Assembly (NCBI GenBank): GCA_026225115.1
Contig: JAMFSE010000082.1
Location: 1-64,000 of the forward strand
Direction: 5' to 3'
Source of the DNA: Rhodovastum atsumiense
GTDB taxonomy: Bacteria > Pseudomonadota > Alphaproteobacteria > Acetobacterales > Acetobacteraceae
DNA length: 64,000 nt
In this document: one piece after another, positions 21,776 through 37,738 of the stretch
How positions within the stretch are numbered: position 1 is the first letter of the stretch
Layout of the letters: each line of letters opens with the position of its first letter
The notes under the pieces: generated by a model
The model's database searches: none
Told to the model about the DNA's origin: nothing
Seen by the model: the letters and a program-made list of their open reading frames with translations, nothing else
Position numbers and translations under genes: made by a program

Positions 21776-22566
21776 GGCAGCAGACTTTCGATGATGGTTT
21801 TCAAAACAGGCAGAATGGGCGCGGAAAGTTCCAGCGGGCTTGGCCAGTTTTCCGGATCAGGCACTTCCGGCTCTGCCATATAGCCGCCGCACGCCAGCTC
21901 CATTTGCAGCGCATTCACCCCGGCAGCGGGCGCGCCGTAATGCCGCGTGATATAGCCGCCTTTGAAGCGGCCATTGACGACATAAGAGAAATTTTTATCT
22001 TCTCCGCAAATTGCCGCGACGCGCTCCGTAATTTCGCCATCACAGGATTTTCCGTCATTCGTGCCGATGTTGAAATTCGGCAGCACCCCTTCGAATAATC
22101 TGGGAATGACGCCGCGAATGGAGTGGCAGTCGTAGAGCGTCACCGTGCCGTGCAAAGCGCGCAGCCGGGAAATCTCGCTTGCGAGCATTGCGTGATACGG
22201 ATCGAAATATGCCGTGCGCCGTGCCTGTGCCTCGTCATCGTCCGGTTCCTGGCCTGGTACATAAAGCGGCTCGCCGTCGAAACTGGTGAGCGGGCAGAGG
22301 CTGGTAGTGGACTGGCCCGGATAGAGCGAGGCGCCGGATGGATCGCGATTGACGTCGATCACCGTACGTGAAATTTCCGTCTGCAAAATCGTCGCATCCA
22401 GTGCGGCGGCAAAAGCGTAGAGCTCGGGCAGCCACCAATCAGCATCCTTGCGCGCCAGCCAGAGCGAAACCAGCTGCTGCTGAAATCTCTCGGGAATTTC
22501 GGTGCCGGCATGCGGTATGCTGAGGATCAGCGGCGCGCTGCCCTGGCGAAGTTTTAAAAATTCCAT
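21772..22566 (-). CDS. hutG: N-formylglutamate deformylase
   Basis: 264 residues of the N-formylglutamate amidohydrolase family. Visible are [12 protein letters not shown] (14-25), the [15 protein letters not shown] segment, YDCHSIRG with metal-type His, and [20 protein letters not shown] near the end. It cleaves N-formylglutamate to glutamate and formate. It works with HutF (formimidoylglutamate deiminase), showing that this bacterium uses the five-step, formylglutamate route. The start overlaps the hutH stop by 13 bp. Confidence 0.95.
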
Positions 22567-24071
22567 GCGAGACCAGGAAGGTTTTCAAATGAAAGCATGC
22601 CGGCGCGCAGAACCGCAATACCCGCCTCGATATCGGGCGCAAAATACCGGTCCTCTTCCAGATGCGGAACAACGGCGCGCACGGCAGCACGCAAAGCTTC
22701 CAATATCGGGCTCGAAGGCAGCGGATGGAAATCGCAGCCTTGCGCCGCCGCCAGCAATTCGATGGCGATGATGGCGCGCAAATTCTCCGTCATGGCCTGC
22801 AGGCGCCGTGCGCCATGGGCCGCCATGGAAACATGGTCTTCCTGGTTGGCGGAGGTTGGGATGGAATCGACCGAAGCCGGAAACGCGCGTGTCTTGTTCT
22901 CCGACACCAGCGCCGCAGCGGTTACCTGAGGGATCATGAACCCTGAATTCAAGCCGGGCCTGGGGGTAAGAAACGCCGGCAGGCCGGAGAGGGCAGGGTC
23001 GACCAGCATGGCCAGCCGTCGCTCCGCCAGGGAGCCGATTTCGCATACCGCCAAGGCGATCATATCGGCGGCGAATGCAACCGGTTCGGCGTGAAAATTG
23101 CCGCCGGACAGCGCCTCGGCGGGCTCACTGAAAACCAGCGGATTATCGGTCACGCCATTGGCCTCGGTACCCAGCGTGGCGGCGGCCTGGCGGAGCAGAT
23201 CGAGCACCGCGCCCATCACCTGGGGCTGGCAGCGCAGGCAATACGGATCCTGCACGCGCGTGTCGTTGGTCACATGCGAGGCGCGGATTTGGCTGCCGGC
23301 CATCAGCCCGCGCAACGCCGCCGCAACTTCCATCTGGCCTGCATGGCGGCGCAGTGCATGGATGCGCGGATCGAAGGGCGCGTCCGAGCCGCGCGCGGCA
23401 TCGGTGGAGAGCGCGCCGGTCAGCAAGGCGGCTTTGAAGAGATCCTCGGCCTCGAACAGCCCGGACAAAGCATAGGCCGTGGAAAACTGGGTGCCGTTGA
23501 GCAGCGCCAGACCCTCTTTCGGCCCTAGAACAATCGGCGCAAGCCCGGCGGCCGCCAGACCTTCAGCTGCCGGTAGCCGTCCGGTAGGCGATAAAACTTC
23601 GCCGATGCCGATCATCGCGGCCGCCATATGCGCCAGCGGTGCCAGATCGCCGGAAGCGCCGACGGAGCCTTGCACCGGGATGACCGGAATAATGTTGCGA
23701 ACAAGCATCTGTTCAAGCAGCTGCACCGTCTCCACCCGCACGCCGGAAGCGCCTTGCGCCAGCGAGCCAAGTTTCAGCGCCATCATCAGCCGCGCTACCG
23801 AAACCGGCATCGGCTCTCCCACGCCGGCGGCGTGCGAGAGCACCAGATTGCGTTGCAGGATTTCAAGATCGGCATCGGCAATGCGCACGGTGGCGAGTTT
23901 TCCAAAGCCGGTGTTGATGCCGTAGACGGGTGCGTCGCGTTCGAGAATCTCCTGCACTGCAGCGGCAGCACGCGTAATGGGTGCCCAGGCGGTGGCGGCC
24001 AGCGTGCAGTTGGCGCCGCGGTAAATTTCGCGCCACTGCGCCAGGCTGACTTCTGCGGGGACAAGGATCAT
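22554..24071 (-). CDS. hutH: Histidine ammonia-lyase (histidase)
   Basis: 505 residues from the ATG at 24071, which overlaps the hutI stop by four bases. The frame stays open to 24635 inside hutI, but that extension is not protein-like. The MIO-forming triad Ala139-Ser140-Gly141 is in [15 protein letters not shown]. Tyr50 lies in YGINTGFG, and other blocks are [20 protein letters not shown] and [20 protein letters not shown]. It deaminates histidine to urocanate and commits it to catabolism. Confidence 0.97.
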
Positions 24072-25261
24072 GAAGCACTCCAGATGCGGCGGTAAAGCGG
24101 ATTGAAACCGATGCGGTAAACCAGCTCCGCCGGGGTTTCGATGTCCCATATCGCCAGATGACATTTGCGTCCCGGCGCCAGCACGCCGACATCCGCACGC
24201 CGCAGTGCCGCGGCGGCATTGCGGGTGGTGCCCAGCAGGCATTCCTCCACCGTCAGGCGGAATTCCGTGGCCGCCATGTTCATGGCCAGCAGCAATGAGT
24301 TCAATGGCGAGGTGCCGGGATTTAAATCGGTTGCGACCGCCATGCGCACATGTTTCGCGCGCAGCTCGGCGACCGGCGGCGCCTGCGTTTCCCGCAAGGC
24401 GTAAAACGCGCCCGGCAGCAGCACGGCCACCGTGCCGGCCTGCGCCATGGCGGTAACACCCTGCGCATCGGTATGCTCCAAATGGTCCGCCGATATGGCG
24501 CCAAAGCGCGCGGCCAGTGCAGCACCGTGCAAGTTTGAAAGCTGGTCGGCATGCAGTTTTACCGACAGACCATGCGCTTTGGCGACCCTGAAAACCTGCG
24601 CGATCTCGTCCGGTGTAAAGGCAACGCCCTCGCAAAATCCATCCACCGCATCGGCCAGGTTTTGCGCGGCGATTTGCGGAATGAGGGTTTCGGTCAGCAG
24701 CTTGACATAACCCGCGCGGTCATCACGAAATTCTCCGGGCAGTGCGTGCGCGCCAAGGAAGGTCGCAGCGATATCCACCGGCGCGGTCGCGCCAAGGCCA
24801 CGGATCACGCGCAGCATTTTAAGCTCGGATTGCTCCGTGAGCCCATAGCCGGATTTGATCTCAACGGTCGTGACACCTTCGTCCATCAAAGCCTGCAGCC
24901 GCCTTGCGGCGCTGGCGGCAAGGCTTTCCGCATCGGCGGCGCGGGTCGCTGCAACGGTCGATGCGATTCCGCCGCCGGCTTTCGAGATTTCCTCGTAGCT
25001 GACCCCGTTCAGCCGCGCCTCGAACTCCGCGGCACGGTTGCCGCCATGCACCAGATGGGTGTGGCAATCGATGAGCCCGGGGGTGATCCAGCGCCCGTCA
25101 CAATCCACCACGTTTGCGGCATCGAACTTCTGCTCCGGCCCGGCATAGATAATCCGGCCGCCAAGCTCCGCCACCATGCCGGGCGCCACCACGCCCAGGC
25201 CCGACAGTTCCGGCGCCATGGTCGCAAGCCTCGCATTGGTAAAAACGGTGTCGGCGCGCAT
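24068..25261 (-). CDS. hutI: Imidazolonepropionase
   Basis: 397 residues, amidohydrolase superfamily. Metal site HTH is at 67-69 ([12 protein letters not shown]), KLHADQ at about 237-242, and [10 protein letters not shown] carries the metal/catalytic Asp at about 317. The [11 protein letters not shown] strand is typical. It opens imidazolone propionate to formimidoylglutamate. AAGGG sits 7 bases from the ATG. It is the first gene of the leftward hutIHGUD transcript, reading from the divergent promoter that carries the HutC palindrome. Confidence 0.96.
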
Positions 25262-25289
25262 GAAATAACCCTTGGCCAGCGGTGCTAGG

Positions 25290-25301
25290 TTGTATATACA
25301 A
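25290..25301. promoter_or_regulatory. HutC-type operator in the divergent hut promoter
   Basis: TTGTATATACAA is a perfect 12-bp palindrome lying between hutI (start at 25261) and hutF (GTG at 25327). Its TGTATATACA core resembles known HutC/GntR-family operators. One site could repress both hut transcripts. It would lie inside the coding region if hutF began at the upstream in-frame codon 25282, which argues for the GTG start. Confidence 0.8.
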
Positions 25302-25326
25302 TAAGAGCGAACAGAAAGAATGTACA

Positions 25327-26643
25327 GTGGAAAAAACCTTGTTCTTTCGCCATGTGTTGCTCCCCCATGGCTGGGCTGACAACGTGGCGGTGCGTATCGA
25401 AGCGGGGCGCATCACCGGCCTGGAGACCGGCCTCACGGCGGCGGCCGGAGCGCGGCACGGCATCGCGCTGGCCGGCATGGCAAATCTGCACAGCCACAGC
25501 TTTCAACGCGCCATGGCCGGGCTGACGGAAATACGCGGCGCGGCGCAGGATAGTTTCTGGACCTGGCGGGAGCTGATGTACCGCTTCGCGCTGCAAATGA
25601 CGCCCGACGATGTCGAGGCCGTGGCCACGCATGGTTTCATCGAAATGCTGGAAAGCGGCTTCACCGACGTTGCCGAATTTCATTACCTGCATCATGCGCC
25701 GGATGGGCGCGCATATGATGATATCGGCGAGATGGCGTCGCGCCTAGCCGCCGCCGCCGCGCGAACCGGCATTGCACTAACATTGCTGCCGGTGTTCTAC
25801 GCCCATGCCGGTTTCGGTGGCCTGCCGCCGGTGCCGGCGCAGCGCCGCTTCATCAATGATCTCGATGCCTATGCAAGGCTGTATGAGCGTTGTGCCGCGC
25901 TCGCGCCGGCCGGCGTGGCGCCGCACTCCCTGCGCGCCGTTACGCTCGAACAACTGACGGTGCTGAGCAAACTGGCCGGCCCCCGCCCGGTGCATATCCA
26001 CATCGCCGAACAAACCGCTGAGGTGGAAGCCTGCCTGGCGTGGTCGGGCATGCGGCCGATCGCCTATTTGCTGGACCATGCGCCGGTCGCCGAAAACTGG
26101 TGCCTGGTGCACGCAACCCATGCCGATGCCGCGGAGCTTGCCGGCATGGTGCAAGCGGGCGCGGTGGTGGGTTTATGCCCTGTCACCGAGGCCAGTTTGG
26201 GCGACGGGATTTTTCCGGCTTCCAGCTATGCCGGTGCCTGGGGCATCGGTTCGGATTCCAACGTACTGATTGGCGTGGCGGAGGAATTGCGCATGTTGGA
26301 ATATTCCCAACGCCTAACCCAGCAACGCCGCAACGTCATGGCGAGCGACACCCAGCCCGCCACGGCGACAGCGCTTTATCTGCGCGCCGAGGCCGGGGGT
26401 GCCCAGGCGCTCGGCGGCAAAGCCGGCCTCACCGTGGGCAGCCCGGCCAACATCGTGACGCTGGATGGCGACGACCCGGATATCGCCCTCGCCGCCGCCG
26501 TGTTCACCCGGCGCATGCCTCCGGTGCGCGATGTCTGGGTGCATGGCGAGCGGCGTGTGGCGGATGGGCGGCACACCATGGCCGAGCTCGCAAAACGACG
26601 GTTCGATGCGGTGGTGAAGCGTTTGCTGCAGGAATCGCCATGA
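25327..26643 (+). CDS. hutF: Formimidoylglutamate deiminase
   Basis: 438 residues from GTG 25327 ([20 protein letters not shown]). The longer frame from 25282 would run through the operator and is unlikely. Amidohydrolase fold: HSH metal site at 55-57 ([13 protein letters not shown]), [28 protein letters not shown] and the late [20 protein letters not shown] with the metal Asp. It releases ammonia from formimidoylglutamate to give formylglutamate for HutG. Its TGA overlaps the hutC ATG. Confidence 0.95.
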
Positions 26644-27398
26644 ACCATCTGGCTGCGGAAAAACCCCAACATCTGTACGAGCGCGTCAAACAATATCTGT
26701 TGGACCGAATGGCGAGCGGGCAGTTGCCGGACGGCAGCCGCATCCCATCTGAATATGAATTGATGGAAACGCTCGGCGCCTCGCGCATGACGGTGCATCG
26801 CGCGCTGCGGGAAATGTCGGCGGAAGGCCTGCTGCACCGGGTGCAAGGGGTCGGCACCTTCGTGCGCAAGGCCGAGCCGCGCTCGGCATTGCTGGAGATT
26901 TTCGATATTTCCGAGGATATTCTGCGCCGCGGGCATTTGCACCAATCACGGGTGTTGCGATTGGAGGCGTTCGCCGCCGACCGTGACCTTGCCGCGCAAT
27001 TTTCACGCCGCGCCGGAGCAAAAATATTTTACTCGCTGATCGTGCATGCCGAAAATAATCTGCCGGTGCAGTTGGAGGAACGTTTTGTCTCCCCGCGGTT
27101 TGCGCCAGACTATCTGAAACAGGATTTTACGCTGCAGACCACCAACCGCTATCTGCAAAACATCGCAGCCCCCAGCGAGGTTGAGCATATCGTGCATGCC
27201 GTCACGGCCGATGCGCAGGCGCAGGCATATCTGGAAATATCGCCGGCGGAACCCTGCCTGCTTGTCGAACGCCGGACCTGGACGGAGGCCGGCCCCGCGA
27301 CACGCTCACGCCTGCTGCACCCCGGCCACCGCTACAGCCTTGGCAGCCGGTATCAGCCCGCGCAACCCCGCCGCGGTCAGATGCCGAGCCGGGATTGA
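26640..27398 (+). CDS. hutC: GntR-family histidine-utilisation repressor HutC
   Basis: 252 residues from the ATG at 26640, overlapping the hutF stop as ATGA. The N-terminal winged helix is LYERVKQYLLDRMASGQLPD, then SRIPSEYELMETLGASRMTV and HRALREMSAEGLLHRVQGVG. The C-terminal UTRA domain (about 95-235) includes SLIVHAENNLPVQLEERFV and CLLVERRTWTEAGPATRSRL. It is expected to bind urocanate and release the palindrome at 25290. Placed with hutF, it would be autoregulated by the same operator. Confidence 0.95.
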   Translation: MNHLAAEKPQHLYERVKQYLLDRMASGQLPDGSRIPSEYELMETLGASRMTVHRALREMSAEGLLHRVQGVGTFVRKAEPRSALLEIFDISEDILRRGHLHQSRVLRLEAFAADRDLAAQFSRRAGAKIFYSLIVHAENNLPVQLEERFVSPRFAPDYLKQDFTLQTTNRYLQNIAAPSEVEHIVHAVTADAQAQAYLEISPAEPCLLVERRTWTEAGPATRSRLLHPGHRYSLGSRYQPAQPRRGQMPSRD

Positions 27399-28841: not shown

Positions 28842-29999
28842 ATGTCCGGCCTGTCCTTTACTTTGAACGACCAGCAGCTGGCGATCCGCGACATGGCGCT
28901 GGCATTCGCAGCCGACCGCCTGGCGCCGATGGCGGTGGAATGGGATCGCAATAAAATCTTTCCGCTGGCGGTGATGCGGGAGGCCGCGGCACTCGGCATT
29001 GGTGGCATCTATGTCGATCCGGCGCATGGCGGCTCCGGCCTGTCGCGGCTGGAGGCGGCCATTATCATCGAGGCGCTTGCCACCGGCTGCCCGACCATCT
29101 CTGCCTATATCTCCATTCACAACATGGTGGCGGGCATGATCGGCCGCTACGGCGACGCGGCGCAGCAGCAGCGCTTCCTGCCGAAATTATGCTCCATGGA
29201 ATCCTTCGCCAGCTACTGCCTGACCGAGCCTGCGGCGGGATCCGACGCGACCGCCTTGCGTTGCAAGGCGCTTCGCGACGCAGACATGTATGTGGTGAAC
29301 GGCGTGAAACAGTTCATCTCCGGCGCCGGCGTCTCGGATGTGTATCTGGTCATGGTCCGCACCGGGGAGAACGGCGCCAAAGGCATTTCCACGTTGATCA
29401 TCGAGGCTGGCACGCCCGGGCTCTCCTTTGGCGCCAATGAACATAAGATGGGCTGGAACGCGCAGCCGACGCGGCAGGTGATTCTTGAGGATGTCCGCGT
29501 GCCTATCGGCAACAGGCTCGGCAATGAAGGGATGGGTTTCAAAATCGCCATGGCCGGGCTGGATGGCGGGCGCGTCAATATCGGCGCGGCCTCGCTCGGC
29601 GGCGCCCAGGCCGCGCTGGACAAGACGATAAAATATCTTGGCGAGCGCAAGGCCTTTGGCAAAGCCATCGGAGAATTTCAGGCCCTGCAGTTCCGGCTGG
29701 CGGATATGGCAACGGAGCTCGAAGCCGCCCGGCTGATGATCTGGCGCGCCGCCAGCGCGCTGGATGAACAGGCGAATAATGCCACAATGCTCTGCGCCAT
29801 GGCCAAACGCTTCGCGACCGACGCGGGCTTTGCCATCGCCAATGAAGCGCTGCAATTGCACGGCGGCTACGGCTATCTCGCCGATTACGGAATCGAGAAA
29901 ATCGTCCGGGATCTGAGGGTGCATCAGATTCTCGAAGGCACGAATGAGATCATGCGCCTGATCATTTCGCGGCAGATTCTAGGAGGGACAAAATCATGA
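28842..29999 (+). CDS. Acyl-CoA dehydrogenase, isobutyryl-CoA dehydrogenase type
   Basis: 385 residues, the standard acyl-CoA dehydrogenase length. ESFASYCLTEPAAGSDATAL holds the flavin-binding signature, and GGYGYLADYGIEKIVRDLRV is the second signature. The base is Glu365 in HQILEGTNEIMRL. The pairing with 3-hydroxyisobutyrate dehydrogenase (ATGA overlap) points to isobutyryl-CoA oxidation in valine breakdown; other short-chain substrates remain possible. No strong ribosome-binding site is seen before the ATG. Confidence 0.9.
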   Translation: MSGLSFTLNDQQLAIRDMALAFAADRLAPMAVEWDRNKIFPLAVMREAAALGIGGIYVDPAHGGSGLSRLEAAIIIEALATGCPTISAYISIHNMVAGMIGRYGDAAQQQRFLPKLCSMESFASYCLTEPAAGSDATALRCKALRDADMYVVNGVKQFISGAGVSDVYLVMVRTGENGAKGISTLIIEAGTPGLSFGANEHKMGWNAQPTRQVILEDVRVPIGNRLGNEGMGFKIAMAGLDGGRVNIGAASLGGAQAALDKTIKYLGERKAFGKAIGEFQALQFRLADMATELEAARLMIWRAASALDEQANNATMLCAMAKRFATDAGFAIANEALQLHGGYGYLADYGIEKIVRDLRVHQILEGTNEIMRLIISRQILGGTKS

Positions 30000-30871
30000 C
30001 CAGAATCGGTTTTGTAGGGCTGGGCAATATGGGGCTGCCGATGGCGGTCAATCTTGTGAAGGCTGGTTACGCGGTGACCGGCTTCGACGTGGTGCCCGCG
30101 GCCCTGCAGGCAGCCGCGGCGGCTGGGATCAGCATTGCCGATACCGCTGCGGGCGTCACACAAGGCGCGGCGTTGGTCATTACCATGCTGCCGAACGGCA
30201 AATTGGTGCTCGGCGTCTATGCCGAGCTGCTGCCGGCGGCAGCGCCCGGAACTTTGTTCATCGACAGCTCGACCATCGATGTGGATTCTGCCCGCGCGGC
30301 GGGCGCACAGGCTGCGGCCGCGGGCATGCAGGCGCTGGACGCGCCGGTCTCAGGCGGTGTCGGTGGCGCTGCCGATGGCACGCTCACCTTCATGGCCGGC
30401 GGCGAGGCCGCGGCTTTTGCCAGAGCCATGCCGGTGCTGGAGGTGATGGGGGCAAAAATCATCCATTGCGGCGGCGCCGGCGCCGGCCAGGCAGCAAAAA
30501 TCTGCAACAACATGATTCTGGGTATTTCGATGATCGCGGTCGGCGAGGCCTTTGTACTGGCGGAAAAACTTGGCCTGTCGCACCGGGCGCTGTTTGATGT
30601 CGCCGCCACCGCTTCCGGCCAGTGTTGGTCGCTCACCAGCTATTGCCCGGTCCCGGGCCCGGTTCCCGCAAGCCCTGCCAATAACCAATATAAACCGGGA
30701 TTTGCCGCGGCGCTGATGCTGAAGGACCTCACGCTCTCGCAGGAAGCGGCGAGCAGCGCCGGCGCCGCAACCGCATTGGGCCGCCACGCGATGGAGATTT
30801 ATGAGGCCTTCGTGCGCGACGGCAATGGCGGGACCGATTTCTCCGGGGTGATCAACGCGATCCGCGACTAG
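29996..30871 (+). CDS. mmsB: 3-hydroxyisobutyrate dehydrogenase
   Basis: 291 residues of the beta-hydroxyacid dehydrogenase family. NAD site GFVGLGNMGLPM (5-16), substrate motif DAPVSGG (115-121), catalytic Lys168 in GQAAKICNNM. The later segment CWSLTSYCPVPGPVPASPAN is typical of the 3-hydroxyisobutyrate enzymes. It oxidises 3-hydroxyisobutyrate to methylmalonate semialdehyde in valine catabolism. Start overlaps the dehydrogenase stop by four bases. The hydratase, hydrolase and MmsA of the pathway are not in this window. Confidence 0.92.
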   Translation: MTRIGFVGLGNMGLPMAVNLVKAGYAVTGFDVVPAALQAAAAAGISIADTAAGVTQGAALVITMLPNGKLVLGVYAELLPAAAPGTLFIDSSTIDVDSARAAGAQAAAAGMQALDAPVSGGVGGAADGTLTFMAGGEAAAFARAMPVLEVMGAKIIHCGGAGAGQAAKICNNMILGISMIAVGEAFVLAEKLGLSHRALFDVAATASGQCWSLTSYCPVPGPVPASPANNQYKPGFAAALMLKDLTLSQEAASSAGAATALGRHAMEIYEAFVRDGNGGTDFSGVINAIRD

Positions 30872-30877
30872 CGGGGA

Positions 30878-31948
30878 TCAAATCCGGGTCAGGCATTGAG
30901 CGCGCTGCCAGGCCAGCGCGCTCAATTCCGGAAAAGCCTTGGCCCGTTCCGCGGCTTGCGAAGACGCCGCGGTGCCGCGCAACACCCGGCCCTTGATGCC
31001 GTGGAAAATCGAGGCCAGCCGAAACAGGTTGAAGGCGAGATAGAAATCATAGCCCGGAATGTTTTGCCGTCCGGTGCGCCTGCAATAGGCGTCGATGTAA
31101 TCGGCTTCGCTGGGGATATTGAGCGCCGCAATATCGGCTCCGGCCAGACCGGCCACAATTCGCGGCGGCATGTGGTACATCATTGCGTTATAGGAAAAAT
31201 CCGCCAGCGGGTGGCCGAGCGTCGATAGTTCCCAATCCAGCACCGCCAGAATGCGCGGTTCGGTGGGATGGAAGATCAGATTGTCGCAGCGGAAATCCCC
31301 ATGCACGATGCTGGTTTCATCGCCGGGCGGAATATGCGCGGGCAGCCATTCGAGCAGCCGGTCCATATTCGCATCGCGCCCGGCATCGGCATCATCCAGA
31401 TATTGCCGGGACCAGCGCTCGATCTGCCGGCCGAAATAATTTCCCGGCCGGCCGTAATCCTGCAGCCCGATGGCGGCGTAATCGATCCGGTGCAGCTGCG
31501 CCAGCGTTTCGTTCATCGCGCCGAAATAGGCTGGGCGTTCCGCCGAAGAAACATTCGGGAAGGTGCAGTCCCAGAAAATCCGCCCCTCCACCATGTCCAT
31601 GATAAAGAACCAGGTGCCGATGACGGTCTCATCGGTGCAAAGTCCGTGCACGGCGGCGACCGGAAAACCAACGCCGCCGAGGGCCGTAAGAATGCGGGCT
31701 TCCCGCTCTACCGCATGCGCGCCCTTCAGCAATTCGCCCGGCGGCTTGCGGCGCAGCACATAGCAGCGGGAAGGGGTGATCAGTTTGTAGGTCGGGTTGG
31801 ATTGGCCGCCCTTGAACTGCTCGACGCTGAGCGGGCCTGCATAATCACGGATATTCTCCGCCATCCATTCAGCGAGCCTCGCCTCATCGAAGCGGTGCGC
31901 CGCGCGCACCGGCGTCGTGCCCGCATTGTCATCCTGCGTCACGCTCAC
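30878..31948 (-). CDS. Aminoglycoside-phosphotransferase-fold kinase (ACAD10/11 kinase-like, LvaA-like)
   Basis: 356 residues from a GTG at 31948 that overlaps the upstream acyl-CoA dehydrogenase stop as GTGA. Kinase-fold motifs: EQFKGGQSNPTYKL (glycine-rich loop), LRRKPPGELL, the catalytic loop VHGDFRCDN (His216, Asp218, Asn223) and LDWELSTLGHP with Mg-binding Asp238. This subgroup matches the kinase part of mammalian ACAD10/11 and bacterial LvaA, which phosphorylate the hydroxyl of 4-hydroxyacyl-CoA. Last gene of a three-gene operon. The substrate assignment is inference from family and context. Confidence 0.88.
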   Translation of the reverse strand: MSVTQDDNAGTTPVRAAHRFDEARLAEWMAENIRDYAGPLSVEQFKGGQSNPTYKLITPSRCYVLRRKPPGELLKGAHAVEREARILTALGGVGFPVAAVHGLCTDETVIGTWFFIMDMVEGRIFWDCTFPNVSSAERPAYFGAMNETLAQLHRIDYAAIGLQDYGRPGNYFGRQIERWSRQYLDDADAGRDANMDRLLEWLPAHIPPGDETSIVHGDFRCDNLIFHPTEPRILAVLDWELSTLGHPLADFSYNAMMYHMPPRIVAGLAGADIAALNIPSEADYIDAYCRRTGRQNIPGYDFYLAFNLFRLASIFHGIKGRVLRGTAASSQAAERAKAFPELSALAWQRAQCLTRI

Positions 31949-33129
31949 GCGCCATGCGCTTTCAGATATTCCCGCTTGATGGCCTTGGCGAGCGACCATT
32001 TATGCACCTCGGTCGGCCCATCATAAATGCGGAAGGAGCGAATTTCGCGAAACACCTGCTCGACGATCAGATCGCGCGTAACCCCGGCGCCGCCCATGAC
32101 CTGCACGCAGCGATCCGCCACGCGGAACAGCGCATCCGAGACCGCGACCTTGGCCATCGAACTTTCATTGCCGCCTGCAGCGCCGGAATCCAGCACATCG
32201 GCGCACCAGTCGATCATCAACTCGGCCTGTTTCAGTTCGATCAAATTATCGGCAAGCTGAAAGCCGACGCCTTCATGGTCGATCAGCTTTTTACCGAATG
32301 CCTCGCGCCTGCAGGCGTAATCGGTGGCGATCTCCTGCGCGCGCACGGCAGCACCTTGCCAGCGCATGCAATGCGAAAGCCGGGCAGGGGCCAGGCGGAT
32401 CTGGGCGTATTTGAATCCTTCATTCGCCTTGCCGAGAATATTGCTCGCCGGCACGCGAAGATTCTCGATCGTTACCACTGCATGCCCGCCCGGCATGGAA
32501 CCGTCCAGCGTATCCAGAATATGGTCCAGGCGAATTGCGGGGTTGGGGAGCGCCACCAAAAACATCGTCGCGGCGATGTTTTCCGCGCTGCCGGTTCGCG
32601 CCATCACGATGCCGATTTTGGCGCCTTCAAAACCGGTGATGAAGGCTTTCCGGCCATTGATCACCCAGTCATCACCATCCGGCGCCGCAACGGTTTTCAT
32701 CATTGCGGGATCGGAGCCGGCACCGCCCTCGGCAGCCGGCTCGGTCATGAAAAACGCCGAACGGGCGCGGCCTTCTACCAGCGGCTTCAGGAATTGTTCC
32801 TGCTGCGCCGGCGTGCCAACCTTGCCGAGCAGGAACATATTTCCCTCATCCGGCGCCGCGGTATTGCAGGCCAGCGGGCCCAGCAGCGACAACCCGGTTT
32901 TTTTCAGCACCATCGCGGTCTCGCGCTGGGTGAGATGACCGCCGGGCAATATATGCGGGGTCAGCACGCCGGCGGCGCGGGCTTTTTCGCGCAATTCATC
33001 GACCAGAGAATCCGCCGGACCGTGCGGGCCGCAGCGCGGATCGCGCTCAAAGGGGATCACCACATCGCGGACAAAGCGCTCCACTTCTGTGGCGATGCGG
33101 GCTGCCCGCTCCGGATCATGGCTGCTCAT
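31945..33129 (-). CDS. ACAD11-like acyl-CoA dehydrogenase family protein (LvaC-like)
   Basis: 394 residues. Flavin region FFMTEPAAEGGAGSDPAMM; second signature QVMGGAGVTRDLIVEQVFRE. The position normally filled by the catalytic Glu (EGTNEI) reads IYDGPTEVH (368-376), the form seen in ACAD10/11 relatives. This, with the overlapping kinase-fold gene on one side and an oxidoreductase on the other (both 4-bp overlaps), suggests an enzyme that eliminates phosphate from a 4-phosphoacyl-CoA rather than a plain beta-oxidation dehydrogenase. The last step is inference. Confidence 0.87.
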   Translation of the reverse strand: MSSHDPERAARIATEVERFVRDVVIPFERDPRCGPHGPADSLVDELREKARAAGVLTPHILPGGHLTQRETAMVLKKTGLSLLGPLACNTAAPDEGNMFLLGKVGTPAQQEQFLKPLVEGRARSAFFMTEPAAEGGAGSDPAMMKTVAAPDGDDWVINGRKAFITGFEGAKIGIVMARTGSAENIAATMFLVALPNPAIRLDHILDTLDGSMPGGHAVVTIENLRVPASNILGKANEGFKYAQIRLAPARLSHCMRWQGAAVRAQEIATDYACRREAFGKKLIDHEGVGFQLADNLIELKQAELMIDWCADVLDSGAAGGNESSMAKVAVSDALFRVADRCVQVMGGAGVTRDLIVEQVFREIRSFRIYDGPTEVHKWSLAKAIKREYLKAHGA

Positions 33130-34196
33130 GCGCGGCCAACCTGTACGACCAGCTTGCCGGTGGCCCGGCGCTCCAGCAGATCTGCAATGGCATCGCCGCC
33201 GCGCTCGAGCGGGTAGTGGGCGCTGACATGCGGACGGATTTTTCCGGCGCTATAGATTTCCAGCAGTTCGCGGTTATTAGCGGCGTTCAGTTCCGGCTCC
33301 ATTTCCGTGAAACTTCCGTAGAACACGCCAACAGCACTTGCCCCTTTCAAAAGCAAAAGATTGAGCGGCAGCTTAGCGATTCCGCCGGCAAATCCCACCA
33401 CCAGCAGCCGGCCGCGCCAGGCCAAAGCCCTCGCCGCGGCTTCGGAAAGCATGCCGCCAACGGAATCGTAAACGACATCCGCGCCCTGGCCGCCGCATGC
33501 GGCTTTCACCTGTGCGCTGAGCGCGCGGGCCGCGTCCGCGGCCGGTTCGCGCGGATAGACAAAGCCGCTGTTCGCACCATGATCCAGCGCAATCTGCAGC
33601 TTCTCCGGGCTCGACACGCCGGCGACGACATTGGCGCCAAGCGCACGCCCCAGTTCCACCGTTGCCAGGCCCACGCCGCCGGCGGCGCCGAGCACAAGCA
33701 GGGTCTCACCTGGGCGCAAATCCGCACGCTGCTTCAGCGCGTGATAGGACGTGCCGTAGGTCAGGATAAAGGCGGCCGCCTCATCGAAGGGCATGGCGTC
33801 CGGCATGGCGATGCACAAGTTGGCATTCAGCGCCACCTCTTCGGCCATGCCGCCCCAGCCGGTCATTGCCATCACCCGGTCTCCGGGCCTCGGCCAGATC
33901 ACATCGGGAGCGGAATTTGTTACGACACCGGCAATTTCGGCGCCCGGCGCAAACGGCCGGGGCGGGCGGTACTGGTAGCGATCCTCGATCATCAGCGCGT
34001 CGGGAAAATTGACGCCGCAGGCGGCCACGCGCACCACCACCTGTCCGGGCCCCGCAACCGCCGGTGCGATTTCGTGGACAGCAAGCGAGCCTGGGCCGCC
34101 GGCCGTGACGCTTAACAAAGCCCGCATCAAACCGGCCGGATTGCTGAGTTTGTAGCGTTTGAGGGCAGTTTGCTGCAATGCTTGCGGTTCATCCAT
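33126..34196 (-). CDS. NADPH:quinone oxidoreductase-type MDR dehydrogenase
   Basis: 356 residues from ATG 34196 with AAAGGTGGG just upstream. The ATG at 34127 (MRALLSVTAGGPG) is the alternative. GroES-like domain: VVVRVAACGVNFPDALMIED, PGAEIAGVV. Rossmann part: LLVLGAAGGVGLATVELGRA, VYDSVGGMLSEAA. No zinc-binding cysteine cluster, so it belongs to the quinone oxidoreductase/enoyl reductase branch. First gene of the operon QOR - ACAD - kinase. It may reduce an enoyl or quinone intermediate. Confidence 0.88.
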   Translation of the reverse strand: MDEPQALQQTALKRYKLSNPAGLMRALLSVTAGGPGSLAVHEIAPAVAGPGQVVVRVAACGVNFPDALMIEDRYQYRPPRPFAPGAEIAGVVTNSAPDVIWPRPGDRVMAMTGWGGMAEEVALNANLCIAMPDAMPFDEAAAFILTYGTSYHALKQRADLRPGETLLVLGAAGGVGLATVELGRALGANVVAGVSSPEKLQIALDHGANSGFVYPREPAADAARALSAQVKAACGGQGADVVYDSVGGMLSEAAARALAWRGRLLVVGFAGGIAKLPLNLLLLKGASAVGVFYGSFTEMEPELNAANNRELLEIYSAGKIRPHVSAHYPLERGGDAIADLLERRATGKLVVQVGRA

Positions 34197-34338
34197 CCCA
34201 CCTTTCTTCTCGCGCACTGTCTTTACACTTTGCCCATGGCGAGTAAATCTTCGCGTCCGGCGCACAGACTAAAAATCCGACCCTGCGTGCCTGAAAAATT
34301 CGCGCGCCGAACCGGCGTCATTCGCTTTAGGGAGACAA

Positions 34339-35886
34339 ATGCAGATCACCTTGCCGGTTTCGGCCAATGCCAGGCGGCGCGGAGACCAGCCCGCGATCAT
34401 CAGCAAGCACCGCTCGCTGACCTGGTCCGAACTCGCAGATACCGTCGCACGGTTGGCGGCCCTGTTGCGCGACGCCGGGCTGCGGCAGGGCGGCCGGGTC
34501 GCGGTGCTGGCGGATAATTGCGACCTGCATCTGGCGGCGTTTTTTGCGATTCCCTGGGCCGGCGGCATCCTCGTGGAAATCAATCTGCGCCTGAACCCGG
34601 TCGAAATCGCCGAGCAGATTGCCCATAGCGAACCTTGCCTGGTGCTGCATGATGAAGCCCGGACGGCGCTGCTGAACCAGGCGCTGGCGCTGACCGCATG
34701 TGCGCCCGCGGTGTTGATGCTGCGCGGCGACGCGGCCAGTGTGGAGGCGATGCTGCCCGGCGCCGCGCCGATGCCCGATATGCTGCGCCATGGCGGCGAT
34801 GTCGCCAGCATCTTCTATACCGGCGGCACCACCGGACGCGCCAAAGGTGTCATGCTGACGCATGACAATCACAGCTATAACAGCCTGGGCATGTGGGCAG
34901 CACTCGGCGCCGATATCGACGGCGTGCGCTATTTGCACGCGCCGCCGATGTTCCACATCGCCGATGCTCTGTTCGTCCATGCCGTGACCATGATCGGCGG
35001 CCTGCATGTCGTCCTGCCGCGCTTCGATGCCGAGGCGGTGATCGAGGCCGTGAACGCCCATCAGATCTCCGACATCTATCTGGTGCCCACCATGATCTCC
35101 GCTCTGCTGGAAGCGCTCGAGCGCGAATCTCGCCCTTTGCCCAGCCTGCAGCGGATTTTCTACGGCGCGATGCCGATGCCCGAAGCTACGCTGCGGCGGC
35201 TGATGGCGGTATTGCCGCAGGCCGGCCCCGTCCAACTCTTCGGCCAGACCGAGGCCGGCCCGGTGCTCACCTTGCTGCTGCCGGCGGATCACGACCTGTC
35301 GGGCGAGACGAACCATCTGCGATCCGCGGGCACGCCGCTGCCGGGCACGGATGTGAAAATCGTCGGTCCCGACGGCGCGGAGCTTGGCATCGGCGAGGTT
35401 GGCGAAATCACCGGCCGATCCGGCACGGTCATGGCCGGCTACTGGCAAAACCCCGAGCAGACAGCGCTGGCTTTGCAGGATGGCTGGCTGCGCACCGGCG
35501 ATGGCGGCTATCTGGATACCGATGGGTTTCTGTATTGCGTCGACCGGATCAAGGACATGATCATTTCGGGCGGCGAGAACATCTACTCGGTCGAAGTCGA
35601 GCGCGCGGTCACGCTGCATCCGGCGGTCGCATTCTGCGCGGTCATCGGCGTTCCTGATCCAGTCTGGGGCGAGCGCGTGCACGCGGTGCTGGTGCTGCGG
35701 CCGGGCATGGGGCTGGAGCATGAGGCGCTGCGTGCCCATTGCCGGCAATATATCGCCGGCTACAAGCTGCCGCGCTCATCGGAAATCCGGGATGCGCTGC
35801 CGCTCTCGGGGCCCGGAAAAATCCTTAAGCGCGCGCTGCGCGACGAAATCCTCGCCCGGCTGGCGAATGAGAATAGTTGCGGCTGA
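34339..35886 (+). CDS. AMP-forming acyl-CoA synthetase
   Basis: 515 residues of the ANL superfamily. ATP loop YTGGTTGRAKGV (160-171), FGQTEAGPV, GWLRTGDGGYLDTDG, the hinge DRIKDMIISGGENIYSVEVE and catalytic Lys494 in GPGKILKR. It activates a carboxylic acid to acyl-CoA through an acyl-adenylate. GGGAGA is 5 bases from the ATG. Divergent from the QOR/ACAD/kinase operon (142 bp between starts), so it likely supplies that pathway's CoA ester. Chain length unknown. Confidence 0.92.
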   Translation: MQITLPVSANARRRGDQPAIISKHRSLTWSELADTVARLAALLRDAGLRQGGRVAVLADNCDLHLAAFFAIPWAGGILVEINLRLNPVEIAEQIAHSEPCLVLHDEARTALLNQALALTACAPAVLMLRGDAASVEAMLPGAAPMPDMLRHGGDVASIFYTGGTTGRAKGVMLTHDNHSYNSLGMWAALGADIDGVRYLHAPPMFHIADALFVHAVTMIGGLHVVLPRFDAEAVIEAVNAHQISDIYLVPTMISALLEALERESRPLPSLQRIFYGAMPMPEATLRRLMAVLPQAGPVQLFGQTEAGPVLTLLLPADHDLSGETNHLRSAGTPLPGTDVKIVGPDGAELGIGEVGEITGRSGTVMAGYWQNPEQTALALQDGWLRTGDGGYLDTDGFLYCVDRIKDMIISGGENIYSVEVERAVTLHPAVAFCAVIGVPDPVWGERVHAVLVLRPGMGLEHEALRAHCRQYIAGYKLPRSSEIRDALPLSGPGKILKRALRDEILARLANENSCG

Positions 35887-35914: not shown

Positions 35915-37321
35915 CTAGGTTTTATTCAAACTCACGACGCTGCGCTGCGCGAATTCCATCAACCCCTCGCGACCGAACTCGGTGCCGATCCCCGATTGTT
36001 TGGCGCCGGAAAATGGAATGGTGGGCCCGAAATGCGTGTGGTGGTTGATCCATACCGTGCCGCTTTCGATCCTTGATGCCAAGGCGAAAGCGGCGTCGTG
36101 ATCCTGTGACCAGATCGAGCCGCCGAGACCGTATTCCGATGCATTGGCGCGCGCCACGACGTCGTCAATTTCGTCGAATACGATGACTGGCAGGATCGGC
36201 GCGAATTGTTCTTCATCAACCAGGGGGGAGCCGTCGGCGATATCGCGTACGACGGTGGGTTGAATGAAATATCCCGGCCCCTCCGCCTTGCCGCCGCCGG
36301 TGATGATATTACCGTCCTGCGCTGCGACTTCCAGATAATGGATCGCCTTGTCATATTGCGCGCGGTTCTGCAGCGGGCCCACCCGAGTCCCCTGCTGCAA
36401 CCCGTCGCCAATAGCGAAGCCGGCAACTTCGCGCGCCAGCGCATCGCACATCTCGTCATAGATCGAGCGATGCACGTAGAGTCTTTTAAGCGCGATACAG
36501 ACCTGGCCGGCGTTGAAAAACGCGCTGCCGGCAACCCGCGTCGCGGTTTTGCCGATATCCGCATCAGGCATGACGATGCCGGCATCGTTGCCGCCGAGCT
36601 CCAGCGTCAGCCGCTTTAGCGAGGACGATGACGCCGCCATCACCTTTCGGCCGGTGGCGGTGGAGCCGGTAAAGGAAATTTTGGCGATATCGGGATGGCT
36701 GCTCAGCACGGCGCCGAGTTCATTATCATCGATCACGATGTTGACGACGCCGGGCGGAAAAATCTCCGCCAGCACCGGCGCCAGCATCAGCGCGGTAACC
36801 GGTGTGGTGGGTGCGGGCTTCCAGATGAAGCTGTTGCCGAGCAGCACCGCCGGCGCCAGCTTGTACAGGCCGATCAGGAACGGAAAATTCCAGGGTGTGA
36901 TGCCGGCGACGACGCCGAGCGGCCGGTATTGCAGTTCGATCCGGAATTCCGCGTCATCCTGGATGGTTTCAGGTGCTAATTCCTGCTCCGCATAGTAGTT
37001 CAGGAAGATCTGCGCATAGCCGACTTCCGCCTGCGCCTCGGCCAGCGGCTTGCCCTGTTCCTGTACCAGCGTGCGGGCAATCCGGTCGGCATTGGCATGG
37101 ATATGCGCGGAGAGTTTTCGTAATGCGGCCTGGCGCTCTGCCAGCGGCCGCGCTGCCCAGCCGGGCTGCGCCGCCTTGGCGGCTGCGACGGCTTCCTCGA
37201 ACTGCGCCCCGGATGCCCGCGCCACTTGCGTGAAGGGGGTGCCGAGCGCCGGGTTGATGATGTCCAGAACAGCATCGCCCTGCTGTAACCTGCCATTGAT
37301 TAGCATCGGGTAATCGCTCAT
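35915..37321 (-). CDS. NAD(P)-dependent aldehyde dehydrogenase
   Basis: 468 residues. WNFP (144-147) with Asn145, Lys168 in WKPAPTTP, FTGS (217-220), general base Glu241 in LELGGND and nucleophile Cys275 in FNAGQVCIALKR. PTIPFSGAKQSGIGTEFG near the end is normal. It oxidises an aldehyde to the acid. AAGGAGAG precedes the ATG. Converges with the acyl-CoA synthetase (28 bp). Downstream partner of an alcohol-dehydrogenase relic 24 bp upstream, suggesting an old alcohol-aldehyde-acid operon. Confidence 0.93.
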   Translation of the reverse strand: MSDYPMLINGRLQQGDAVLDIINPALGTPFTQVARASGAQFEEAVAAAKAAQPGWAARPLAERQAALRKLSAHIHANADRIARTLVQEQGKPLAEAQAEVGYAQIFLNYYAEQELAPETIQDDAEFRIELQYRPLGVVAGITPWNFPFLIGLYKLAPAVLLGNSFIWKPAPTTPVTALMLAPVLAEIFPPGVVNIVIDDNELGAVLSSHPDIAKISFTGSTATGRKVMAASSSSLKRLTLELGGNDAGIVMPDADIGKTATRVAGSAFFNAGQVCIALKRLYVHRSIYDEMCDALAREVAGFAIGDGLQQGTRVGPLQNRAQYDKAIHYLEVAAQDGNIITGGGKAEGPGYFIQPTVVRDIADGSPLVDEEQFAPILPVIVFDEIDDVVARANASEYGLGGSIWSQDHDAAFALASRIESGTVWINHHTHFGPTIPFSGAKQSGIGTEFGREGLMEFAQRSVVSLNKT

Positions 37322-37345: not shown

Positions 37346-37738
37346 TCAGCCGTTTGCTGGCATCCGTAGAATTGGCTTGATGACACCGCCGCAACCGGCA
37401 TCGGCCATCGCCTCGTTACTTTGTTCGATACTATAAAATTTCACCAGCCGATCGGCCGGAAATCGCCCCTGCGGATAAAATTCGATCAACTCCGGTATGA
37501 GGCGCTGTGGAATACTGTCGCCTTCGAGATGCCTTTGATCGTTTTGCCGGGAATTATTATCCCGTTCACTGCGAAACTTGCCTCGGTATTTAGCCGCAAC
37601 CCCGGTTGCGATTATGCGAACCAGCACTTCGTTCGGTGTTGGGGGCGCCAGCCGCAAGTCCTTGATGATAAAACCCCCTGCTTTTGAGCGCACGACGGCT
37701 GCCCGTGCCGCGCGGTCCTTCGCGTGAACATCGCACAT
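37346..37738 (-). pseudogene. Relic of a zinc-type (benzyl-alcohol-like) alcohol dehydrogenase
   Basis: The open frame of 130 codons joins the start of an MDR alcohol dehydrogenase (KAGGFIIKDLRLAPPTPNEV, LVRIIATGV) directly to its end (EGDSIPQRLIPELIEFYPQG, DRLVKFYSIEQSNEAMADAG, IKPILRM). Intact members have about 360 residues, so the zinc and NAD-binding middle is gone. Around 37520-37570 the normal-looking sequence FAVNGIIIPGKTIKGI appears in another frame, so there are also two compensating shifts. A good AGGAG before the ATG at 37738 remains. Not expected to be an enzyme. Confidence 0.8.

Follow-up and report, generated by a model that had tools for sequence, protein, structure and literature searches.

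We report a cluster of three overlapping genes in Rhodovastum atsumiense (Acetobacteraceae), found in a 64,000-nucleotide stretch of contig JAMFSE010000082.1 (GenBank assembly GCA_026225115.1, positions 1 to 64,000, forward strand; here called the window). The genes encode an oxidoreductase of the medium-chain dehydrogenase/reductase (MDR) superfamily, an acyl-CoA dehydrogenase (ACAD) and a kinase of the APH fold, and are read from the minus strand in that order (Table 1). ACADs with a phosphate pocket are sorted below into types I to VI, labels coined in this analysis, of which III to VI are smaller branches.

Table 1. Genes and motifs of the kinase-ACAD locus (positions in the window)
Feature	Position	Strand	Remarks
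MDR oxidoreductase, quinone-oxidoreductase-like	33126..34196	-	likely start ATG 34196; longest open reading frame 33126-34265
Type II phosphate-pocket ACAD, putative 4-phosphoacyl-CoA phosphate eliminator	31945..33129	-	
APH-fold kinase, putative hydroxyacyl-CoA kinase	30878..31948	-	356 aa; GTG start
Phosphate-pocket stretch RLAPARLSHCMR of ACAD	32362..32397	-	residues 245-256; alignment to ACAD11
Catalytic Asp motif YDGPTEVH of ACAD	32002..32025	-	residues 369-376; D370 = ACAD11 D753
Kinase catalytic loop HGDFRCDN	31280..31303	-	residues 216-223; D218 = ACAD11 D220, N223 = N225
AMP-forming acyl-CoA ligase	34339..35886	+	divergent from MDR, ACAD and kinase
Aldehyde dehydrogenase, past the ligase	35915..37321	-	

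Both junctions are 4-bp overlaps (ATGA for the MDR stop and ACAD start, GTGA for the ACAD stop and kinase start). The second applies to the kinase start at GTG 31948; the longest kinase open reading frame (ORF) begins at ATG 31999, and several relatives (e.g., at loci L093, L102, and L163) have Met at the in-frame place equivalent to 31948. For the MDR, ATG 34196, preceded by AAAGGTGGG, is a likelier start than that of the longest ORF. A scan of the locus for promoters and terminators gave no signal exceeding shuffled sequences. The four-base overlaps of three leftward genes and the facing AMP-forming ligase given in a preliminary description of the locus are borne out, as are its DGPTEVH motif in place of the catalytic-Glu motif (found at the catalytic-base position) and its intact HGDFRCDN loop.

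The best matches of the ACAD among solved chains were mouse ACAD11 (197 bits), 4hr3 (193 bits) and human ACAD11 (183 bits), all others reaching 142 bits or less; the nearest solved structures include 8v3u and 2wbi (ACAD11). ACAD residues R245, R250, H253, C254, M255, and R256 align with R626, R631, H634, C635, M636, and R637 of ACAD11. According to Rashan et al. 2025 (PMC12440821), D753 is the catalytic Asp of ACAD11, and changes to R626, H634 or R637 abolish or impair its ACAD activity. On this alignment, none of the residues required by ACAD11 for holding and eliminating a 4-phosphate is missing from the window ACAD. Equivalents of R626, R631, H634, R637, and D753 were kept in the window ACAD and in 26/26 type II rows of the ACAD tree, and the 11 ordinary ACADs in the tree were without R626, H634 and R637 equivalents and without HCMR, their catalytic column holding E (7 rows) or G (4 rows). 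Among 91 relatives (at least 66% identity), 89 kept both R....R..HCMR and YDGPTEVH; one exception had YDGPSEVH and the other Ser for the Met of HCMR. This conservation, together with the Pfam profile scores (Acyl-CoA_dh_1, 2.1e-36 for the ACAD; APH, 8e-53 for the kinase), places the features of the locus beyond chance.

A predicted model of the ACAD (nine input sequences) had a mean predicted local distance difference test score (pLDDT) of 76.8, with values below 50 at residues 81-90, 208-214, and 368-381, the last stretch containing the catalytic Asp. In fold comparison it matched 2wbi (Z 40.0, root-mean-square deviation 3.2, 383 residues aligned), 8v3u (39.1, 3.1, 382) and 4hr3 (38.7, 3.3, 383), other ACADs reaching Z scores of at most 37.2. 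The predicted fold thus weakly backs an ACAD11-like enzyme, by a small margin that is not decisive alone.

The ACAD tree comprised 55 rows, 44 with the phosphate pocket and 11 ordinary, and LvaC itself was absent from it. The preliminary description had named a place among ordinary beta-oxidation enzymes as the outcome that would tell against it; the 44 pocket rows instead split from the 11 ordinary ACADs with support of 100/100. Pocket residues and tree together rule out an ordinary beta-oxidation enzyme as the identity of the ACAD. The window ACAD fell in the type II clade (26 rows, support 100/99) and outside the type I clade, which holds mouse ACAD11 and 4hr3 (12 rows, 100/99). Its identity was 67-76% to type IIa rows, 51-65% to type IIb rows and 30-39% to other pocket rows (35% to mouse ACAD11). 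As judged by tree and alignment, type II is a widespread clade, separate from that of ACAD11 and with the same active-site set. We found no publication on this clade in titles and abstracts of the openly licensed literature.

The full pocket was present in five branches (types I-IV and VI), and in type V the position of R637 is taken by His; APH kinases adjoined ACADs in five of the six branches (not type IV). The ACADs at loci L066, L067, L068, L069, L070, and L085 belong to branches III-VI, those at L069 and L070 being type V, and an APH kinase lies directly beside the ACAD at L066, L070, and L085.

These placements bear on whether the genes form a plain lva route for levulinate or 4-hydroxyvalerate, in which the kinase would be LvaA, the ACAD an LvaC orthologue, the ligase LvaE and the MDR a stand-in for LvaD. 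The same two-step logic and the divergent ligase are consistent with it. Pseudomonas putida also has separate kinase and ACAD genes for 4-hydroxyacyl-CoA (LvaA/LvaC). LvaC, however, is reported to be 62% identical to ACAD10 and 56% to ACAD11 (PMC11342911), for which reason it presumably belongs to type I, whereas the window ACAD lies outside that clade and is only 35% identical to ACAD11. By clade and identity, in a tree without LvaC, the window ACAD is not an LvaC orthologue. LvaD is reportedly a short-chain dehydrogenase/reductase (SDR). The preliminary description was right that no obvious LvaD is present: an MDR, not an SDR, occupies that place in the operon. That no obvious LvaB was noted says little either way, because the P. 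citronellolis cluster reportedly yielded none as well. No feature of the locus points to levulinate, and we consider an lva route unlikely.

The best solved matches of the kinase were 3dxp (416 bits, 54% identity) and the ACAD11 kinase (266 bits, 41% identity to mouse). The former, its closest solved relative, is deposited as a "putative acyl-CoA dehydrogenase" and presumably comes from Ralstonia eutropha. In addition to the loop residues in Table 1, R174 is equivalent to ACAD11 R176. Residue R86 of the ACAD11 paper could not be placed, because position 86 of the printed mouse sequence, numbered from D220, is a Phe; an Arg-Glu pair two residues before that position is retained in the window kinase as R82-E83, as counted by hand on the alignment. 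Kinases taken from type IIa loci formed one clade (100/99; 16 rows, with the window kinase twice), nested in a 27-row group (100/99) with type I kinases, 3dxp, and the ACAD11 kinase, in a tree that has long branches and several weak forks and from which LvaA is absent. As in ACAD10 and ACAD11, a kinase is combined with an ACAD that has the catalytic Asp, the R626/H634/R637 pocket and the HCMR motif, but here in two separate proteins, and with an ACAD of another clade. Aminoglycoside resistance (3'-phosphotransferase) was rejected as a role for the kinase, which scored 32.3 bits against NCBIfam model NF033068 (cut-off, 205 bits).

The kinase could instead phosphorylate an alcohol other than a CoA ester, as the 25-hydroxysteroid kinase of Sterolibacterium denitrificans does, with the ACAD an independent dehydrogenase. 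Such a phosphotransferase is reported (PMC8449060), it too phosphorylates before phosphate elimination removes the hydroxyl, and some type II loci have Rieske oxygenase genes in their vicinity. That enzyme, compared here by description only, acts on a free steroid, its lyase is given as unidentified, and it is described as little similar to known phosphotransferases, whereas the window kinase resembles the ACAD11 kinase, which reportedly requires a CoA ester (PMC12440821). The ACAD moreover carries a complete phosphate pocket, and we regard this alternative as very unlikely.

Linkage of the two genes was examined at loci fetched by the ACAD alone, the search of named genomes supplying the best 80 of 548 matches, with kinases counted by tblastn. 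The 89 type II locus rows represent 87 distinct loci (the contigs of L058 and L086 are the same, as are those of L061 and L087). A same-strand kinase lay within 300 bp of the ACAD in 44/89 rows (43 distinct loci including the window; 42/86 without it) and within 1 kb in 2 more; 3 rows (2 distinct) were near a contig edge. The kinases found in this count, the window excluded, were 56-77% identical to the window kinase. By profile search of 102 locus rows, the kinase was adjacent in 48, within 5 kb in 1 and lacking in 53. Where the ACAD was unlinked and the genome was searched (31 loci), 30 genomes had a kinase at E ≤ 1e-60. In a class sample of 241 genomes, 94 had a kinase at that threshold and 15 an ACAD at E ≤ 1e-120, 13 of the 15 having both (Fisher p 1.3e-4, or 3.0e-4 without the window genome, with relatedness and genome size ignored); in one miss, G270, a divergent kinase lies only 11 bp away from the ACAD. 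At type IIb loci L167 and L170, the ACAD-adjacent kinase comes from a distant APH branch (25-30% identity to the window kinase), which looks as if ACADs exchange kinase partners. At L161 (9995-11164), the type II ACAD is called as two separate ORFs (196 and 183 aa), with an intact kinase ORF next to them; the cause may be a frameshift or an error in the sequence, or the gene may be a pseudogene.

Within the genus, a kinase at E ≤ 1e-30 was present in 16 of 37 congener genomes, exactly those that carried a pocket ACAD, which was of type I, II, or III (weakest best ACAD match, 4.8e-51). No pocket ACAD was found in the 21 kinase-free congeners, 12 of which were judged by their best ACAD match alone (motif absent), the other 9 having an ACAD match no better than 2e-27 or none (Fisher p 8e-11, uncorrected for relatedness). 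In the window genome, one pocket ACAD was found, its two next-best ACADs being without the pocket, and of nine APH-family matches only the operon kinase reached E ≤ 1e-30. With one kinase at that threshold and one pocket ACAD found in the genome, the two very likely act together.

The MDR had relatives (E ≤ 1e-70) in 11/16 kinase-bearing congeners against 0/22 kinase-free ones. They stand beside a type I ACAD in G004, G006, G010, G018, G024, and G031 and about 2 kb off in G035; in G015 and G016 they are 4-5 kb from a type II ACAD, and in G032 tens of kb away. The ligase, by comparison, had no match at E ≤ 1e-100 in the 37 congeners (1/38 genomes with the window genome). Thus the MDR recurs with pocket ACADs in the genus and the ligase does not; the ligase result counts against an lva route, and the ligase is unsupported as a conserved operon partner. 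It possibly serves an upstream step, as may the putative aldehyde dehydrogenase beyond it. With the PIG3 quinone-oxidoreductase model, whose cut-off is 297 bits, the MDR reached 193. Among solved proteins it comes closest to an uncharacterised oxidoreductase, VAT-1, and quinone oxidoreductases, and this kinship also speaks against a role in place of LvaD. For MDRs of this kind, saturation of an activated double bond seems more plausible than reduction of a ketone. By rough, codon-scored gene calls, SDR-sized genes directly precede the ACAD in two clusters (15 and 13 of 84 parsable locus rows), often overlapping it by 4 bp, and the representatives scanned are SDRs; the MDR thus sits where many relatives have an SDR, a point in favor of the lva route.

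Matches occurred in 292 plasmid records, six of which were looked at, and in five of these six the kinase was beside the ACAD or one gene off. Two of these five regions have enoyl-CoA hydratase or ligase genes and a thiolase before or after. By annotation, an Acinetobacter soli plasmid carries SDR, ACAD, kinase, enoyl-CoA hydratase, and thiolase, with a ligase further on; a Pseudosulfitobacter plasmid carries ligase, another ACAD, SDR, ACAD, kinase, and thiolase; a Novosphingobium plasmid carries SDR, ACAD, and kinase; and a Haematobacter plasmid carries ACAD and kinase. Sphingobium TomTYG65 has a ring-hydroxylating oxygenase, an NADP-dependent oxidoreductase (without a match to the window MDR at ≥36% identity), ACAD, 3-hydroxyacyl-CoA dehydrogenase, and kinase, and no kinase is annotated near the ACAD of a Variovorax SRS16 plasmid. 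The beta-oxidation settings of several of these loci fit an entry step into beta-oxidation. The window genome, with 24 ECH_1 and 5 3HCDH_N matches (4 of the latter above cut-off), holds the enoyl-CoA hydratase and 3-hydroxyacyl-CoA dehydrogenase families.

Convergent onto the kinase gene lie an ordinary acyl-CoA dehydrogenase, judged by context to be of isobutyryl-CoA type, and a 3-hydroxyisobutyrate dehydrogenase (28842-30871, plus strand), and a similar convergent valine cluster flanks the kinase-ACAD pair of Sphingobium TomTYG65 (L199). The hydroxyl removed by the pair might sit at a different position, or it might be a 4-hydroxyl that is tertiary or branched (e.g., in 4-hydroxy-4-methyl acyl-CoA); such a substrate would explain both the separate ACAD clade and these valine-catabolism neighbors. 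Both valine genes, however, were present at only 2/108 type II rows, the window included, with 3-hydroxyisobutyrate dehydrogenase alone at one more (thresholds, ≥40% identity for this enzyme and ≥50% for the isobutyryl-CoA dehydrogenase), so a link to valine catabolism is rejected as a general rule, and we hold such a substrate to be quite improbable for this pair.

Elsewhere in the window, a 130-aa ORF directly upstream of the aldehyde dehydrogenase (37346-37738, minus strand) has ends that match a zinc alcohol dehydrogenase in its N- and C-terminal parts, the middle being absent (5tnx residues 15-55, weakly, and 326-382; benzyl alcohol dehydrogenase 1f8f also matches); it is likely a remnant gene. 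The neighboring genes at 22554-27398 resemble what we take to be a histidine-utilisation cluster.

Our preferred reading, to which we give a probability of about 0.72, is that the kinase phosphorylates a hydroxyacyl-CoA and the ACAD then eliminates the phosphate to give a 2-enoyl-CoA. The kinase would use ATP to phosphorylate the hydroxyl, most likely at C4; D370 of the ACAD would take the alpha proton while FAD passes the hydride out and back; and the phosphate, held by R245, H253, and R256, would be expelled and the 2-enoyl-CoA released for breakdown by ordinary beta-oxidation. The MDR would probably prepare the substrate, e.g., by saturating the 2,3-double bond of a 4-hydroxy- or 4-oxo-enoyl compound. 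The catalytic cycle is carried over by analogy from that proposed for ACAD10/11 (PMC11342911), whose FAD, in ACAD11, reportedly must be redox-active despite a redox-neutral reaction (PMC12440821). We infer all of the activities, the C4 position, and the MDR step; the gene overlaps, residues, clades, adjacency, co-occurrence, and downstream enzyme families of the genome are observations.

The core chemistry is supported by the pocket residues, the tree, gene adjacency, and co-occurrence, and weakly by the predicted fold. Several points weigh against it. No kinase lies nearby at 40/86 other distinct type II loci; in one of the 31 searched genomes whose ACAD is unlinked, no kinase reaches E ≤ 1e-60; G257, with a type IIb ACAD, has none at that threshold or in its 18-kb stretch; and of 13 later-fetched loci (L166-L178, mostly more distant type IIb), 3 have an adjacent kinase and 10 do not. 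The co-occurrence figures are uncorrected for relatedness and genome size, and completeness is as low as 73-90% for some of the genomes. Other kinases exist in the window genome (the nine APH-family matches), the assignment to C4 rests on the ACAD11 work, and no type II ACAD activity is known from the openly licensed literature searched. Of the preliminary description, the kinase and phosphate-eliminating ACAD chemistry is supported by residues, tree, adjacency, and co-occurrence; the reduced lva operon is unsupported, given the clade, the 35% identity, and the ligase. The locus is probably a pair from a second, widespread ACAD lineage.

The 4-hydroxy-acid chemistry of ACAD10/11 was assigned in papers of 2024 and 2025, and its bacterial breadth looks wider than the lva operon. 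The enzymes assayed in the publications found (ACAD10/11, LvaC, and a Burkholderia orthologue, Burkholderia proteins being reported to replace parts of ACAD10 [PMC11342911]) are presumably all type I. Tentatively, phosphorylate-and-eliminate dehydroxylation may be a broad bacterial toolkit, in which type II would serve other hydroxyacyl-CoAs, perhaps those of terpenoid- or steroid-derived 4-hydroxy acids that are branched or tertiary, and in which types I, II, and III would replace one another as partners of one kinase family inside a single genus. A clade that is separate yet shares the pocket offers natural variants for probing the residues that set substrate range and for studying how FAD drives a redox-neutral elimination, and the type II pairs are candidate genes for the breakdown of gamma-hydroxy acids and lactones.

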